A stretch of 64,000 nt of DNA from Ptiloglossa arizonensis (taxonomy: Eukaryota > Arthropoda > Insecta > Hymenoptera > Colletidae). The notes beneath the pieces are model-generated. The model was not told the DNA's origin, did not search any database, and saw only the letters and a program-made list of their open reading frames with translations. Below, piece by piece: positions 11,001 to 62,905 of the stretch (position 1 is the stretch's first letter; each line of letters opens with the position of its first letter). Both the position numbers and the translations under genes were made by a program. The stretch lies in the NCBI RefSeq assembly GCF_051014685.1, contig NC_135059.1:2170001-2234000 (forward strand), given 5' to 3'.

Positions 11001-12057
11001 TGGCTCCCATCGACCGTGTGAAACTTTTGCATACCTCTAGGAAGCTCGGTTTTCGCGGAAGCGGGTTCTACGACCGTACTTATGTCCGTAGAGCGTATTG
11101 GGTTTCTACGTTCAGGAACAACCAAGTCCGAATGTTTCGTAGCAATTGTTTCGCGAGATTCGGAACGTCTGTCGTGGCACGGTAGCTGATTATTAAATAA
11201 AGATAAAATTTCTAAAAATTACAGATCGGTTTCAGTTTTGGAATTAAAATTCTAAAGTATTTTCGATCGAATTAATCAGCGTTGCTAAAACGAGCGAAAT
11301 CCGAGCTTGCCACGAAAGTAGATATATTTTACCAAATATTTTACCAGTTGGTCGTTGAATGTTATCTATAAGACTTGCATTTAACGTGTGTTTTCGCTAT
11401 GGACGACGGAAAGCTAAAAATTTGTTTCTTACACGCTGACATTTAATTGCAACATCGATACACGATGTGCAATTAATGCACGCATAAGTATACGTCTTGG
11501 GTATAAAAATTCAAGAGAACGTGTAGAAAATGTATAATTTAAATTAACAACAGTTTCACCATCTCGAGTTCTTCTTACAATTTTTACGTCTCGAGTTTCC
11601 GTTCATCGAAGAAGAAAACCGGCGACACGATCGGCGGTCTTTTTCAAATCGCGACGCATTTTTCGTCGATGAAGCGTTTGGATTTCTCGGCGGACTACCA
11701 ACGAAATTGGGGAAAAGTAACGCGTGAATACACGTTTCATAAATTTGTCCGCCTACGTAGTTAAAATTGGCCACTGTGCGCCGATCCATCGCGTTGAAAT
11801 TCGAGGCAGAGAGTTCGGCGTGAGCACCTCTGATTCCGCGCTGAATCGAGCGAGTCCGTGCACGCGGGTGGGCCCAATGGGCCACGAGTCCCACGCGGGT
11901 CCGCGTTCTCGCACCACACACGCACCGGCATTAACACCTGACCTTACGCTATCTACGGAGTGTAGATTCATTATCGGGCATAAATTACGCCGGAAAAACC
12001 TCGGGGAACTCGATACGCTGGCAGCGCTCGGTTTCGCGTTTTATTGGGAGTCCGACT
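8001..12057. other. Gene-free interval with GC-rich island near 9170-9900
   Basis: Two overlapping open frames at 8553-8981 (+) and 8609-8932 (-) have no recognisable domain and appear to be chance openings. 9170-9900 is GC-rich with a CCG/CCCCC-rich patch at about 9343-9378. 11720-12057 is also CpG-rich and runs without a break into the first unit of the 253-bp array, so that unit marks the original locus. No RNA gene was seen. Confidence 0.4.
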
Positions 12058-13070
12058 TCTTGTTCGGGCCCCGAGCGTACCTATTGAACGTGCCTCGAAA
12101 CTCGCATTGCGATGCTCTTCTTTTTTTCCCTCGAATATATTTATGCTGGGATTGCATCGTAAAAACGACCATTACCGTTAACGCTTGTTTTCGTAAGGAA
12201 AAGTTTCGAAAAATCTACTAGGTCGTTCGATAAGTTTCGTCGAACGATAAAACTTAGTAAGTACTGTTCGATAAGTTTTATCGAACTATTCAAAATTGTT
12301 TAAAATGAATTCTTGTTCGGGCCCCGAGCGTACCTATTGAACGTGCCTCGAAACTCGCATCGCGATGCTCTTCTTTTTTCCCCTCGAATATATTTATGCT
12401 GGGATTGCATCGTAAAAACGACCATTACCGTTAACGCTTGTTTTCGTAAGGAAAAGTTTCGAAAAATCTACTAGGTCGTTCGATAAGTTTCGTCGAACGA
12501 TAAAACCTAGTAAGTACTGTTCGATAAGTTTTATCGAACTATTCAAAATCGTTTAAAATGAATTCTTATTCGGGCCCCGAGCGTACCTATTGAACGTGCC
12601 TCGAAACTCGCATCGCGATGCTCTTCTTTTTTCCCCTCGAATATATTTATGCTGGGATTACATCGTAAAAACGACCATTACCGTTAACGCTTGTTTTCGT
12701 AAGGAAAAGTTACGAAAAATCTACTAGGTCGTTCGATAAGTTTCGTCGAACGATAAAACCTAGTAAGTACTGTTCGATAAGTTTTATCGAACTATTCAAA
12801 ATCGTTTAAAATGAATTCTTATTCGGGCCCCGAGCGTACCTATTGAACGTGCCTCGAAACTCGCATCGCGATGCTCTTCTTTTTTCCCCTCGAATATATT
12901 TATGCTGGGATTACATCGTAAAAACGACCATTACCGTTAACGCTTGTTTTCGTAAGGAAAAGTTTCGAAAAATCTACTAGGTCGTTCGATAAGTTTCGTC
13001 GAACGATAAAACCTAGTAAGTACTGTTCGATAAGTTTTATCGAACTATTCAAAATCGTTTAAAATGAATT
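12058..13070. repeat. 253-bp tandem array, four copies, containing mariner terminal repeats
   Basis: The marker TTCGGGCCCCGAGCG recurs at strictly 253-bp spacing (12063, 12316, 12569 and 12822). Each unit has about 160 bp of ordinary sequence, ending in a CGTAAGGAAAAGTT-like stretch, then CTACTAGG and two back-to-back mariner-type palindromes (GTTCGATAAGTTTYRTCGAAC forms). Units differ by only a few substitutions, so amplification is recent relative to the terminal-repeat insertion. The first unit is continuous with unique sequence on its left. The last is followed at about 13072-13098 by another terminal-repeat end. Confidence 0.95.
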
Positions 13071-13071
13071 T

Positions 13072-13100
13072 TATCGTTCGATAAAACTTATCGAACAACA
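13072..13100. mobile_element. Mariner-type terminal repeat fragment at array end
   Basis: ATCGTTCGATAAAACTTATC followed by GAACAAC closes the 253-bp array and matches the terminal-repeat ends elsewhere in the window. It is followed by the ATGGCCTATTG sequence that also follows the terminal-repeat remnant at 15661-15712. Confidence 0.55.
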
Positions 13101-18872: not shown

Positions 18873-19930
18873 AAACTCGTCGACTTGTTACGAACAGAGT
18901 CGAGTAGTCATCGAAAGAATTCCAATGCAAAATGAACGAAAGAATTGAAAACTCGTCGACTTGTTACGAACAGAGTCGAGTAGTCATCGAAGGAATTCCA
19001 ATGCAAAATGAACGAAAGAATTGAAAACTCGTCGACTTGTTACGAACAGAGTCGAGTAGTCATCGAAGGAATTCCAATGCAAAATGAGCGAAAGAATTGA
19101 AAACTCGTCGACTTGTTAGGAACAGAGTCGAGTAGTCATCGAAGGAATTCCAATGTAAAATGAACGGAGGAATTGAAAACTCGTCGACTTGTTACGAACA
19201 GAGTCGAGTAGTCATCGAAAGAATTCCAATGCAAAATGAGCTAAAAAATTGAAAACTTGACTACTTGTTACGAACAGAGTCGAGTAGTCATCGAACGAAT
19301 TCCAATGCAAAATGAGCTAAAAAATTGAAAACTTAACGACTTGTTACGAACAGAGTCGAGTAGTCATTGAAGGAATTCCAATGCAAAATGAGCGAAAGAA
19401 TTGAAAACTTGTCGACTTGTTACGAACAGAGTCGAGTAGTCATCGAAAGAATTCCAATGGAAAATGAACGAAGAAATTGGAAACTTGTCGACTTGTTACG
19501 AACAGAGTCGAGTAGTCATCGAAAGAATTCCAATGGAAAATGAACGAAGGAATTGGAAACTCGTCGACTTGTTACGAACAGAGTAGTCATCGAACGAATT
19601 CCAATGTAAAATGAACGGAGGAATTGAAAACTTGTCGATTTGTTACGAACAGAGTCGAGTAGTCATCGAAGGAATTCCAATGCTAAATGAGCTAAAAAAT
19701 TGAAAACTTAACGACTTGTTACGAACAGAGTCGAGTAGTCATCGAAAGAATTCCAATGCAAAATGAACGAAAGAATTGAAAACTCGTGGACTGATTACGA
19801 ACAGAGTCGAGTAGTCATCGAAAGAATTCCAATGCAAAATGAACGAAGGAATTGGAAACTTGTCGACTTGTTACGCCAACCTGTAAGTAGTCATCGAAGG
19901 AATTTCAGTGTGAAACGAGAAGGAAAAATA
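18873..19930 (+). repeat. 76-bp minisatellite, 14 units
   Basis: The ACTCGTCGACTTGTTACGAA motif (with variants) starts at 18875 and recurs every 76 bp. The one exception is the step at 19559-19630, which is 71 bp because GTCGA is missing from one unit. The last unit (from 19858) degenerates after TTGTTACG. Within a unit, ACTCGTCGACT and AGTCGAGTAGT form an imperfect dyad around a 12-bp spacer, so a transcript would be a chain of stem-loops. Variants such as GAGCTAAAAAATTGAAAACT are shared by non-adjacent units, suggesting block-wise duplication or conversion. Confidence 0.97.
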
Positions 19931-32999: not shown

Positions 33000-33622
33000 T
33001 TGAACGAAGACGATATCTCAATTTCATTTTCTATTTTCAATGCTTTTTCCTGCAATAGTATATCCATGAGTGAATCTCTCATTGTCCGCTATTCTGAAAA
33101 CCACGTCCAAAAGTGGTTTTCTAAATTCTCAAAACTGCACGTTCTTCTTTTTTTCAATTTTAGTTCACGGATTCCTTTAGCTGTACAGCTTCTTCATTTA
33201 CTTTTCTTTCGTTGAATACGTCGAATTGTTTCTATACAGATTTGATACTGTTCTGCTAAATTAAAGATAGTTCCTCCCATCGCGTTCAACTTCTTAAAAA
33301 TGTCAATCTTCCTTTCTATCGTTAATGAAGTTCTTTTTAGGTCCATGACAATTTAATAGTAAACCACGTCCAAAGGTGGTTTTCTAAATTCTCAAAACTG
33401 CACGTTCTTCTTTTTTTCAATTTTAGTTCACGGATTTCTTTAGCTGTACAGCTTCTTGATTTACTTTTCTTTCGTTGAATACGTCGAATTGTTTCTATAC
33501 AGATTTGATACTGTTCTGCTGAATTGAAGATAGTTTCTCCTATCGCGTTCAACTTGTTAAAAGTGTCAATCTACCTTTCTATCGTTAATGAAGTTCTTTT
33601 TAGGTCCATGACAACTTAATAG
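33000..33622 (-). pseudogene. Tigger/pogo-like transposase N-terminal fragment (CENP-B helix-turn-helix)
   Basis: Minus-strand translation gives KLNAIGETIFNSAEQYQICI, continuing into ETIRRIQRK, the layout of the first CENP-B-type (psq) helix-turn-helix. After a frameshift it continues with FENLENHLWTWF, the conserved start of the second CENP-B DNA-binding domain in Tigger/pogo/jerky transposases. Near 33000-33100 it continues RTMRDSLMDILLQEKALKIE, matching the usual 'I...KAxxI' part of that domain. The helix-turn-helix part is present twice because of a 263-bp tandem duplication. There is no DDE catalytic domain. The copy has stops and frameshifts and is not functional. Confidence 0.65.
33098..33622. 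repeat. 263-bp tandem duplication within the transposase fragment
   Basis: 33098-33359 and 33361-33622 are near-identical head-to-tail copies, beginning AACCACGTCCAAA and ending GGTCCATGACAA.TTAATAG. Few substitutions separate them, so the duplication is younger than the mutations that broke the transposase frame. Confidence 0.93.
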
Positions 33623-46295: not shown

Positions 46296-46310
46296 ACAAC
46301 ATAACCTATA

Positions 46311-46437
46311 ACGTATAACGTGTAACTTCTAACGTTTAACGTATAACGTATAACGTATAACGTATAACGTATAACGTATAACGTATAACGTATAACGTAT
46401 AACGTATAACGTATAACGTATAACGTATAACGTATAG
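46311..46437 (+). repeat. (TAACGTA)n heptamer array
   Basis: A few diverged units (46311-46340) are followed by about 14 perfect 7-bp units (46341-46437) reading TAACGTA. Seven is not a multiple of three, so the repeated RYTLYVI peptide on the minus strand is an artefact. The motif does not resemble the G-rich telomeric repeats of insects. Confidence 0.97.
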
Positions 46438-53803: not shown

Positions 53804-54046
53804 CGGTTGAAACGTTGTTCAACGCGGTCGTCGCGCGACCATGACTCGACCGTTCTTTGCGCGATTGCTCGAAAGCGATCTCGATTTCCGTTTCGCTTCG
53901 AGGGGTGTTCTTTCGTAATTATGTACACGCTGAGAACACTTGGCTTGTATTGTTTATATTAATGTGGCGGCACTACCCACGCTTGCCACCAGAGGGAAAC
54001 TCACCACCAACCGTTTCCCGCAAGTTCCCGTACCTGCTCCGATCGC

Positions 54047-54054
54047 TATATATA
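54047..54054 (+). promoter_or_regulatory. TATA box inside the LTR-like insertion
   Basis: TATATATA in the context CGCTATATATATGACC. The start site expected 25-32 bp downstream falls at about 54077-54085, immediately before the 5' side of ribozyme stem III. A transcript begun there would carry the whole ribozyme at its 5' end. Confidence 0.4.
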
Positions 54055-54082
54055 TGACCTCTTACCGATCTTCCAATGTCCC

Positions 54083-54151
54083 GGCGTATAAGGCAGGGCC
54101 TGCTAGGATGCCTTACTGACGAGTCCACTAGCAGTCCCGGGATGAAACGCT
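54083..54151 (+). ncRNA. Hammerhead self-cleaving ribozyme (type III arrangement)
   Basis: Every core part is present in order. Stem III 5' strand is GGCGU (54083-54087), with the cleavage triplet GUA at 54086-54088. Stem I is UAAGGCA (54089-54095) with UGCCUUA (54109-54115), a perfect 7 bp around a 13-nt loop. Then CUGACGA (54116-54122). Stem II is GUCC (54123-54126) with GGAU (54140-54143), 4 bp including a G-U at the base where G-C is usual, around a 13-nt loop. Then GAAA (54144-54147), and stem III 3' strand CGC(U) at 54148-54151, with U54087-A54147 as the closing pair. Cleavage is expected between A54088 and U54089. Stem III is open and stems I and II are closed, which is the type III topology of plant viroid and retrozyme hammerheads. 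Activity is not shown. Confidence 0.85.
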
Positions 54152-54547
54152 TCTCCCCACTTCCTTATATTTCCGTTTTCCCTCTCTCAAACATCTTCTT
54201 ACCGCCGCCAAATTAATATTGGTTGAACCGTTGTTCAACACGGTCGTCGCGCGACCATGACTCGACCGTTCTTTGCGCGTCTTTCGACGCTCGAAAGCGA
54301 TCTCGATTTCCGTTTCGCTTCGAGGGGTGTTCTTTCGTAATTATGTACACGGTGAGAACACTTGGCTTGTATTGTTTATATTAATATTGGTTGAACCGTT
54401 GTTCAACGCTGTCGTCGCGCGACCATGACTCGACCGTTCTTTGCGCGATTGCTCGAAAGCGATCTCGATTTCCGTTTCGCTTCGAGGGGTGTTCTTTCGT
54501 AATTATGTACACGGTGAGAATATTTGGCTTGTATCATTTATATTAAT

Positions 54548-55139
54548 ATTGTAACGAGTAGAATACTATTTTTCAATGCGATGGTCGGATGCAGAGTGCG
54601 AGACTCGTCGCGTGTACGGAGAGAGCTAAAGCCCAAATGACACTTGATACGATTTGGTCTATTGTGTTTTTATTCGTGTTAACGGATGTCGCGATTATCG
54701 TTAATCTCGATTCTTATATTTCGACAAAGGGCATCGAGCTGACGCACGAGCGACGTTATTAAGGAAGAAGATGAATACGTGGACGGTTTTTCGTGTTTCG
54801 AGAGAAACGTGCACCGGGAACATAGAAATTGCAACGATGAGAGATGAAAATTTTGGAGATTATGTATCTATAGCTTCCCAGCGTGAAAATTCAACCACTG
54901 TTCGAAAGTAAATATTATAAGTATTAAAGAATTTGAGAATGCGAGCGAAGAAAGCAGAAAATTACGATTGATAAAATTTAACGTAAATTTGACGATCGGT
55001 AAAGATTCCTTCTTTAAGTTATTTCGTGCGTATTTCGGACAACGATTGCGTCGCGACGTAACGCAAGGCGGATGAACTTGGAAAATTTCGTCGCCTTTTT
55101 CAAAATTCGCTGGTAGTCAACTAACTAGACCATTTGATA
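54548..55139. other. Gene-free interval; start belongs to a dispersed repeat family
   Basis: 54490-54735 is similar, at roughly three-quarters identity by eye, to the reverse complement of 60110-60318. Shared blocks include ACTTGATACGATTTGGTCTA and GATGTCGCGATTATCGTTAA. From 54740 to 55137 nothing was recognised. Confidence 0.5.
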
Positions 55140-60109: not shown

Positions 60110-60318
60110 TTGAAATGTCGAGATCAATGAATCGAGGTTAATGATAATCGCGACACCTGTTAACGGTATAGAAAGACAATAGACTAAATCGTATCAGGTG
60201 CGATCTAAACGTTCAGGATCTCTGCTTCCGAATATCGCATTGAGACGTATCGTACTCGTTGTAATATCAATATAAGCAATAAACCAAGTGTTCTCACTGT
60301 GTATATAATTACAAAACA
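60110..60318 (-). repeat. Diverged, inverted member of the 54490-54735 repeat family
   Basis: Read on the minus strand, it carries GTGAGAACACTTGGTTTATT, GATACGATTTAGTCTATTGT and GTCGCGATTATCATTAACCT, colinear with the plus-strand blocks at 54512-54730. No coding content. Confidence 0.7.
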
Positions 60319-62905
60319 ACAGTAACCATCTAATACGATATAACCAGCTCGAATGCAAAGTTTCGTCTAAATTTATCCAACCGTTTGTCCACGTCGTGTT
60401 AATAAACGCAACCACGTACGCGAGTCCAAACGTGGATTTATACGTTTAAAGTTCGAAACGTTATCAGAAGTGTCCTTGAAACGCGTTCTCGTTCGTGAAA
60501 GTTCCGTTTCGAAATTTCTCGCGATCGAGGGATCTTTTCTGCCAGGTAAAGTAAAACAGAAAAGGGGCCGGCTCGTTCGTTCCAATATATCGAGAGAATG
60601 GCTCGTTAGGCCGTGGACGATCTTTAGGAGGGCGGACAAAACAATCTCTGCCGCGGGAGAGGCACAGCAACCTGTTACCCGGCCCTTATTCCGCTGCTTA
60701 AGGTGGCGTGCACAACAGATGGCCCGCGGTCGGGCCCTGCAGATTCCACCTGCCGCGGCCCGCAGACCTCTGGGCCCGATTCGCTAGATTCTTCCATCGT
60801 CGCGGAGATTCGGCTCGGTCCGAGGAGGCGGGTAACGGGTACGCTTAAATCAGCCGAAACGACTGTAGCTCGTATCTAAATTGGCCCGGCTATGAATTTA
60901 TTCGCGCGTAAAAATCGACGGTGCGCCGCGCTCTTCGCGCCGGCCCCGGTCTTAATGATCTCTTAACGCTCGTTCGGGGTGCCTGGGAGACGGAGATGCT
61001 ATCGTTGGGTCTGTTACGGGCCCCTCCCTGATTAACGGAGAATAAAATAGCCGATGGAAGTGTTATCGCTCGCGCGTCTTCGATAGAATTTCTCGGCCTT
61101 TATCCCGGCAATCATCGACCAGATATACTTTTACCATCGCTACGTTTCAGTTTCGCCATTCGACCACGCCGCGGGATAGATAGAAGTATATTATATTTCG
61201 TCCCGATGAAACGAATTTGATTTTCAAGTCTCCTCGTGTTCATCGATCGGTAAACGATCGACACGGTGACGAATGACACCCATGAGAAACTCGTGACGAA
61301 AACAACGTTCGGAGATCTCCTCGGATATTTTCAAATATTCAAATTTGAACGAACGAATACGAGATACGAATTTTTATTCAAACTTTCTACTTTCGTAACA
61401 AGATAAATCCAAGTAAGTCGTAAGTATCGGTTAGTGAAAAATATATAAAAGTTGTCTTTCTTACAACGGTATTTACCTATTTTTAGAAGCAAAACATTTA
61501 TCAATAATATCATCATAATCCCATCGTTGGGTAGTGTCGTTTTCGATAAAAGTTGTCGATGAATTATTTATCGAACGACGCTATTTTTTAAATAATACGG
61601 TACAAATTAAATCTTCGTGCGAATAGATGGGAAGCTTCGAGACGAAATAACAACTTTTTTCGGTCGGTTCGAGGGCCCTTGGGAACACAGGGCCCCGAGG
61701 CGTAGACCTCCACGACCTGTGCGATAATCCGCCACTGGATCGATATCTCGGATCCGTTTTACCCTCCTCCCAATGTGAAATTTTTTGTTACACTTGTACA
61801 GGGTGTTCCGGAACGAAACCGATAAACTTTGTCCGCACATTCGAGACGTTGCGAACAAAACGAATTGTATACAACGTGTACCGATTCCTTTTCGTTTTCG
61901 AGATACGTATATATGGAAACACGCGTAATTCTTCGATCAGAATACTATACCTGTGCTCGTCGAGACAAACCGTTTCGACATTATTTTCGCTCCGTATCCA
62001 AACAATCGTTCAAACAATTTGCATAAATCGGTGTGAAAACAATTTTTCGAACGCAACCATTACTCGTGATTCATACGCCTCACGTTTCGTATCTCGAGAA
62101 CAAAGACGAATCGACCCATAGTGTATATAACGCTTTTTGTGCGGAAAGGCCTTCCAAATATGCCGACGAGGTAATTAACGTAACGACCAACGGAGGTCGA
62201 AGCGTCATCGAAAGTTACTTCTTTTAAAATTACTTTCCATTTGGCGTTGATTTTCTCCAGAGTTATCGCGTTTGGAATAACGAGTCGACTTTTCGAATTT
62301 TGTCGCGTTTCGGAAAATTTCTCTTCCGTAAAATCTGACGATTCGCGAGATTCGACAGGAAATTTCTCCGGTTCGTTCGGATGGACAGGTGCTGGTTACT
62401 TTCGAGCATGGCCCTTCGTACTTACTTGGCCGCGTACGCGCGCGTGCACCGTGCAAGAAAGTATGGAAGCAAAAGCTACCTTGGCCCCTGGGCTTTTATG
62501 GCGACTGGTCCGATCGAACAGGTGCGCCGTCGTTGCGTGTATATACGCACGGATAAGAGGTTCCATTATTCCGCAGCCGTGTGTATCGTTTGGAAATATA
62601 CCGTGCAAAGAATCCTCGGTGAAGAAAAGCGAGCGCGCGGCGGTGTAATGCGACGCTGGACGGTGACAAAAGGTCGTATCGTCGCGAGGTTCGAGGTTCT
62701 GGAACGGGACGAACGACAGAGAGACCTTCCGATGTCACGAGCTTTTTCGGGCACAAAGGGTACGAGGTCGTGGCCGTCCCTTCGTTTTGTGGAAATTTTC
62801 CCTTCTCGAGGAGTAATGGGTCAACGACTCGTCGAGGGATCGACGAGGCGTTGAACAATCGGCTCGTTGCGAGTGGATCGAATAACCACGCTTAATCGAC
62901 GAAGC
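60319..62905. other. Gene-free interval with GC-rich island at 60600-61060
   Basis: The island contains E-boxes CAGATG (60716-60721) and CACCTG (60747-60752) close together, and several GGGCCC sites; it is a plausible enhancer but unproven. 61671-61700 forms an imperfect GGGCCCT/AGGGCCC hairpin. TACAGGGTGTTCCGGAAC at 61797-61814 resembles an insect MITE end without a found partner. 62240-62860 is CpG-rich and open in many frames. No gene was recognised. Confidence 0.35.

Follow-up and report, generated by a model that had tools for sequence, protein, structure and literature searches.

A type III hammerhead ribozyme motif in a likely solo LTR of an insect genome

Retroelements that carry hammerhead ribozymes are split mostly by kingdom: in the passages cited here, type III hammerheads belong to plant LTR elements, and animal retrozymes are non-LTR elements with type I hammerheads (PMC7229834, PMC7761336). 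A locus in the hymenopteran Ptiloglossa arizonensis raises the question of whether a type III hammerhead can occur in insect DNA as part of a mobile element and, if so, what kind of element carries it. The window, i.e., the whole 64-kb stretch of DNA analysed, contains a type III hammerhead ribozyme motif at 54083–54151 on the forward strand, as found by direct reading, scripts and an Rfam model. The initial annotation described this topology as one of plants and animal hammerheads as mostly type I. Type III is not without precedent in insects, however: termite and fly genomes are reported to contain type III hammerheads whose helices are long and whose loops pair in pseudoknots (PMC7936874, in the part cited); one sentence in PMC7761336 also mentions insect type III hammerheads.

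All parts that define the type III class are present at 54083–54151: a CUGANGA...GAAA core, an NUH triplet, flush stems I–III and an open-ended stem III. Stem III pairs GGCGU (54083–54087) with ACGCU (54147–54151) through five pairs, of which the outermost is G-U, and the cleavage triplet GUA occupies 54086–54088, so that the predicted cleavage site is expected after A54088, between 54088 and 54089. Stem I consists of seven Watson-Crick pairs (UAAGGCA, 54089–54095, with UGCCUUA, 54109–54115) and is followed by the CUGACGA box (54116–54122). Stem II has four pairs (GUCC, 54123–54126, with GGAU, 54140–54143); its core-proximal pair is G-U, where the Rfam consensus has G-C. The GAAA lies at 54144–54147, with its final A paired with U54087. 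Each of these parts was read directly and found by script. The earlier description of a complete motif with correct spacing is thereby borne out by reading and by a descriptor script (core, GUA triplet and stems of 7/4/5 bp), as is its perfect 7-bp stem I flush with both the triplet and the CUGANGA box.

The bare CTGANGA...GAAA spacing is ordinary, with two occurrences in the window versus 4.15 expected, so that the signal is carried by the stems. With stems included, the type III descriptor has a single match in the 64-kb window, with the observed stems of 7/4/5 bp, and the reversed window has none even at stems of at least 4/3/3. First-order Markov controls gave no match in 300 windows at stems of at least 5/4/4. 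Among 2000 second-order windows there were likewise none at this setting, three matches at stems of at least 5/3/3, and 11 at stems of at least 4/3/3 (spread over 10 windows); these odds are per window and leave the number of motifs and windows first inspected out of the count. On the strength of the stems, an accidental pairing of CTGANGA with GAAA was rejected, in keeping with the original view that an accidental origin is very unlikely.

The covariance-model check proposed in the initial annotation gave a divided result. The Rfam type III model RF00008 places the same structure with the same topology at 54081–54153, with 22.4 bits, which is below its gathering score of 48.5 bits, a curation threshold that lies outside the class definition. 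Over 451 bases this match has an E-value of 0.024 and is the best of the three matches listed. When the full 64-kb window was scanned against all 4227 Rfam families, no family reached its gathering score; the RF00008 match has an E-value of 3.3 (about 8e-4 for one family alone, by division) and is one of 10 sub-threshold matches, with seven of the nine others having lower E-values. Tandem type I copies in viral contigs also score below gathering (three IMG/VR copies have 24, 24 and 23.9 bits with Rfam Hammerhead_1 versus a gathering score of 34), so that a low score alone is no argument against a hammerhead, with the qualification that these comparison copies are themselves unproven hammerheads.

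The loops that close stems I and II, each of 13 nt, are complementary to each other, a property overlooked in the initial annotation. Loop I (GGGCCTGCTAGGA, 54096–54108, forward strand; GGGCCUGCUAGGA in RNA) contains CTGCTAG at 54100–54106, and loop II (ACTAGCAGTCCCG, 54127–54139, forward strand; ACUAGCAGUCCCG in RNA) contains CTAGCAG at 54128–54134. Together they provide a 7-bp Watson-Crick run (CUGCUAG/CUAGCAG), with 10 of 11 pairs in an extended version; only 0.6% of 200,000 shuffled loop pairs reach a 7-bp run. This complementarity is a candidate pseudoknot, and the hammerhead is probably stabilised by it. We consider a helix of 10–11 bp between two 13-nt loops sterically doubtful, and about 7 bp more realistic.

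The same complementarity accounts for the lowest-energy nested structure, which is not the hammerhead: it is a hairpin built on the loop–loop helix, without stems I and II (−22.5 kcal/mol versus −12.8 kcal/mol for the hammerhead without the pseudoknot). The nested folding model that yields these values is blind to the pseudoknot, and the loop duplex scored alone gives −18.4. When eight growing prefixes were folded, the best fold contained the complete stem I only at lengths of 40 and 47 nt; from 56 nt on, the competing hairpin prevailed. The selected structure could then be a long imperfect hairpin at 54096–54138, with the hammerhead core present by chance or through decay from an active ancestor. 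The energy difference points in this direction, as do the Rfam score under gathering and the G-U pair with which stem II borders the core; however, a core, a triplet and three flush stems occur together in none of the 2000 control windows at stems of at least 5/4/4, and the strands of the hairpin coincide exactly with the two loops, as a loop–loop contact predicts. A relic or misfolding look-alike is judged unlikely. That the hammerhead motif is real and not due to chance is nearly certain, and judged by its sequence the stretch at 54083–54151 is quite likely to be an active ribozyme or a recent descendant of one.

The hammerhead is contained in a 250-bp insertion (53963–54212, forward strand; TGTGGCGGC ... 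GCCGCCAAA), whose breakpoints can be placed by comparison with an empty site. Neither the insertion nor the empty site was noticed in the initial annotation. The length of 250 bp holds if TTAA is the target duplication. TTAA occurs on the left at 53959–53962 and on the right at 54213–54216, and each copy can be extended up to the 6 bp ATTAAT (53958–53963 and 54212–54217), leaving the duplication length ambiguous at 4–6 bp. The insertion interrupts a forward-strand tandem repeat of about 162 bp, with unit 1 to the left (about 53805–53963) and units 2 and 3 to the right (about 54212–54551; window self-comparison places unit 2 at 54221–54385 and unit 3 at 54389–54547). The uninterrupted target site is visible at the unit 2–3 junction, near 54380–54400: the flanks of the insertion, joined with one TTAA, match units 2 and 3 in 310 of 337 columns with gaps of 10 and 6, and the joined junction is intact, with three differences among the 80 columns around it. 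The hammerhead stretch is thus no original part of the tandem repeat, whose units run on undisturbed once the 250 bp are taken out. At 60266–60321 on the reverse strand lies a segment of about 58 bp with 83% identity to the ~162-bp unit, which may therefore itself be a dispersed repeat.

Excess CpG is a feature of Hymenoptera. The 250-bp element differs from its surroundings in this respect, with a CpG observed/expected ratio of 0.99 versus 1.82 in the whole window, a strong excess; the ratio is as low or lower in six of 1275 overlapping 250-bp windows, those covering the element included.

A target-site duplication with a demonstrable empty site, as expected of a solo LTR, is present here. 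The 5′ terminus TGTGGCGGC follows the TG rule, the 3′ terminus GCCGCCAAA ends in CCAAA, not CA, and the termini are inverted at eight of nine positions (TGTGGCGGC versus inverted TTTGGCGGC). A candidate TATA box, TATATATA, was located by script at 54047–54054 on the forward strand and is a putative promoter element. The 5′ TGT, TATATATA at 54047, the length, the TTAA duplication and the inverted termini are best explained by a solo LTR, and the 250-bp carrier is probably an LTR. The window has no second LTR or other copy of the 250-bp element at E ≤1, except chance pieces of 13–19 bases. A complete LTR retrozyme has two LTRs, each with a type III hammerhead, around a non-coding centre; with one LTR-like unit only in the window, the locus is not classed as such. 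It lacks an internal region that could carry a primer-binding site or polypurine tract, and the 250-bp element has no AATAAA-type signal.

DNA transposons that insert at TTAA have a TTAA duplication and inverted ends. A genuine hammerhead could accordingly sit in a non-LTR insertion, either a short inverted-repeat DNA element (a MITE, possibly TTAA-preferring) or a SINE-like element that acquired the ribozyme, and the duplication and ends seen here are compatible with the former; the 3′ end without CA and the absence of an LTR pair in the window also suit such an origin. The inverted match, however, extends over just 8 of 9 bp, and the 5′ TGT, the TATA box and the length suit an LTR, which makes a non-LTR carrier rather improbable. 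On balance, we favour an LTR retroelement with a type III hammerhead in its LTR, from which a solo LTR would remain at this locus.

Isolated type III hammerheads provide another point of comparison. In termites they are isolated motifs: according to the passages cited, neither HDV-like sequence nor recognisable ORFs occur within 2 kb of them. In some hymenopterans, searches for the termite and fly architecture gave no matches (PMC7936874). The present hammerhead resembles these termite and dipteran motifs and the toad and termite HDV-like RNAs in being of type III with predicted loop pairing, and it shares insect DNA with the former (PMC7936874). It could then be a copy of, or a donor for, the ribozyme of an HDV-like circular RNA of the termite or fly kind, inserted as an isolated motif, given that pseudoknotted type III hammerheads occur in insect genomes and are isolated in termites (PMC7936874). 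The details argue strongly against this: in hammerheads of HDV-like RNAs, the first stem I has 5 bp and is followed by an internal loop and an additional hairpin, and stem II has 6 bp (PMC7936874, in the part cited), whereas here a simple 7-bp stem I bears one 13-nt loop, stem II has 4 bp, and the setting is that of a mobile element, an insertion with its own boundaries, TATA box and target duplication. An HDV-like origin is thus very improbable.

If the carrier is an LTR, the position of the ribozyme within it is informative. Transcription starts about 25–30 nt behind a TATA box, and the candidate TATA box ends 28 nt upstream of the hammerhead. RNA polymerase II would be expected to start near 54075–54082 behind this box, just upstream of the ribozyme and about 113–120 bp into the element, and the transcribed part would have the ribozyme at its 5′ margin (the U3/R boundary). 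In a full copy, two LTR ribozymes would release a monomer that becomes a circle, by analogy with plant retrozymes, and LTR-retrotransposon machinery acting in trans would reverse-transcribe this circle, a route by which such an element could be mobilised. At this locus, the most that the solo LTR could do is cut RNAs that are initiated within it or transcribed through it.

A hammerhead near the transcription start in an LTR is, on the best reading by analogy, the anatomy of plant LTR retrozymes. According to the parts of these papers cited, plant retrozymes have 4-bp target duplications and LTRs of about 300–400 bp that contain a type III hammerhead, and the Jatropha elements have a duplication consensus of WWRR and frequent solo LTRs (PMC4918200); two LTR ribozymes free the plant monomer, which is found as a circle (PMC4918200, PMC7761336). 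The locus described here shares with these elements (Cervera, Urbina and de la Pena 2016, PMC4918200) a type III hammerhead in an LTR-like repeat and a 4-bp duplication, and its TTAA agrees with WWRR. NbRZ1 likewise has its promoter in the LTR: 115 bp upstream of the mapped start is enough as promoter, compared with an expected start at ~113–120 bp here, and its ribozyme trims the transcript at the 5′ end (PMC12029980, in the passages cited). Differences from plant LTR retrozymes are that the repeat has 250 bp instead of 300–400 bp and lies in an insect-like genome, and that neither a two-LTR copy nor a primer-binding site or polypurine tract is seen at this locus. Moreover, a Watson-Crick pseudoknot is predicted here, whereas the loops of plant type III hammerheads are described as being in non-canonical contact, with no helix (PMC7936874).

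Among small animal elements, metazoan non-LTR retrozymes (Cervera and de la Pena 2020, PMC7229834) also combine a hammerhead with a small non-coding mobile repeat in an animal genome, but as described in the part cited they have type I hammerheads, tandem units of about 150–450 bp, no LTR and duplications of more than 4 bp. Hymenopteran TRIM elements (PbTRIM) are small LTR-type elements of an insect that also occur as solo LTRs and have 4-bp A+T-rich target duplications; their LTRs differ in length (152–184 bp), and the main text of the PbTRIM paper does not use the word ribozyme (PMC3532108). Full-text literature searches yielded no recognised animal LTR with a hammerhead among the matches listed. 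The ribozyme thus adds a member to an established class, and its carrier would be a novel variant should it prove to be an LTR.

A wider proposal is that animals have LTR retrozymes. We put this forward tentatively, in two forms. The solo LTR could derive from an insect family whose genomic RNA is cut at both LTRs by a pseudoknotted type III hammerhead and circularised, a possible family that may have evolved independently or be akin to the plant one. Alternatively, and with equal reserve, the ribozyme could belong to the LTR of an autonomous insect retrotransposon, in which it might process that element's own genomic RNA. If true, a type III ribozyme in an insect LTR would run counter to the kingdom division, and insect type III hammerheads, known in termites as isolated motifs, would gain a mobile carrier. 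A source shared by plant LTR retrozymes and viroids with insect elements would also become directly testable; one sentence in PMC7761336 names transfer from type III-bearing organisms such as bacteria or insects as an option.

Searches for relatives covered the window and several sequence collections. The window has 71 stop-to-stop ORFs of at least 120 aa; in a search for coding remnants near the insertion, a Pfam scan of eight of them gave no match at E ≤0.01 for any of the eight. No tRNA genes were found in the window. A phage collection, which is not expected to include insect DNA, contained no relative of the element. In viral contigs, where insect DNA is likewise not expected, the LTR-end pattern and the stem I–core pattern had no matches, and the core–stem II pattern had three (L001–L003). 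L001 and L003 were rejected as relatives, being tandem type I hammerheads without visible relation, and L002 has no Rfam match at E ≤1. The 19-base LTR-end pattern has three matches in prokaryotic genome contigs (insect DNA not expected), all in bacterial records; these were also rejected, with little in common beyond the pattern by eye (five further bases downstream in L005 and one upstream in L006).

The tandem type I hammerhead-like motifs of the IMG/VR contigs lie at L003:4537–5428 and L001:1912–2292. L003 has three such motifs, with spacings of 457 and 346; compared by eye, the third of these has a stem III hairpin of altered sequence relative to the first, in which the pairing is preserved (ACACTCCATTGAGTGT versus CTACCACCTGGTAG). 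Two of the copies, at L001 2262 and L003 5348, have no listed Rfam match at E ≤1.

Other repeats are present elsewhere in the window. Four tandem units of 253 bp with 98% matches occupy 12057–13074, a 76-bp unit is repeated in tandem about 13 times at 18873–19875, a 263-bp unit is directly duplicated with 95% matches at 33098–33622, and the heptamer ATAACGT occurs in about 19 copies at 46301–46436.
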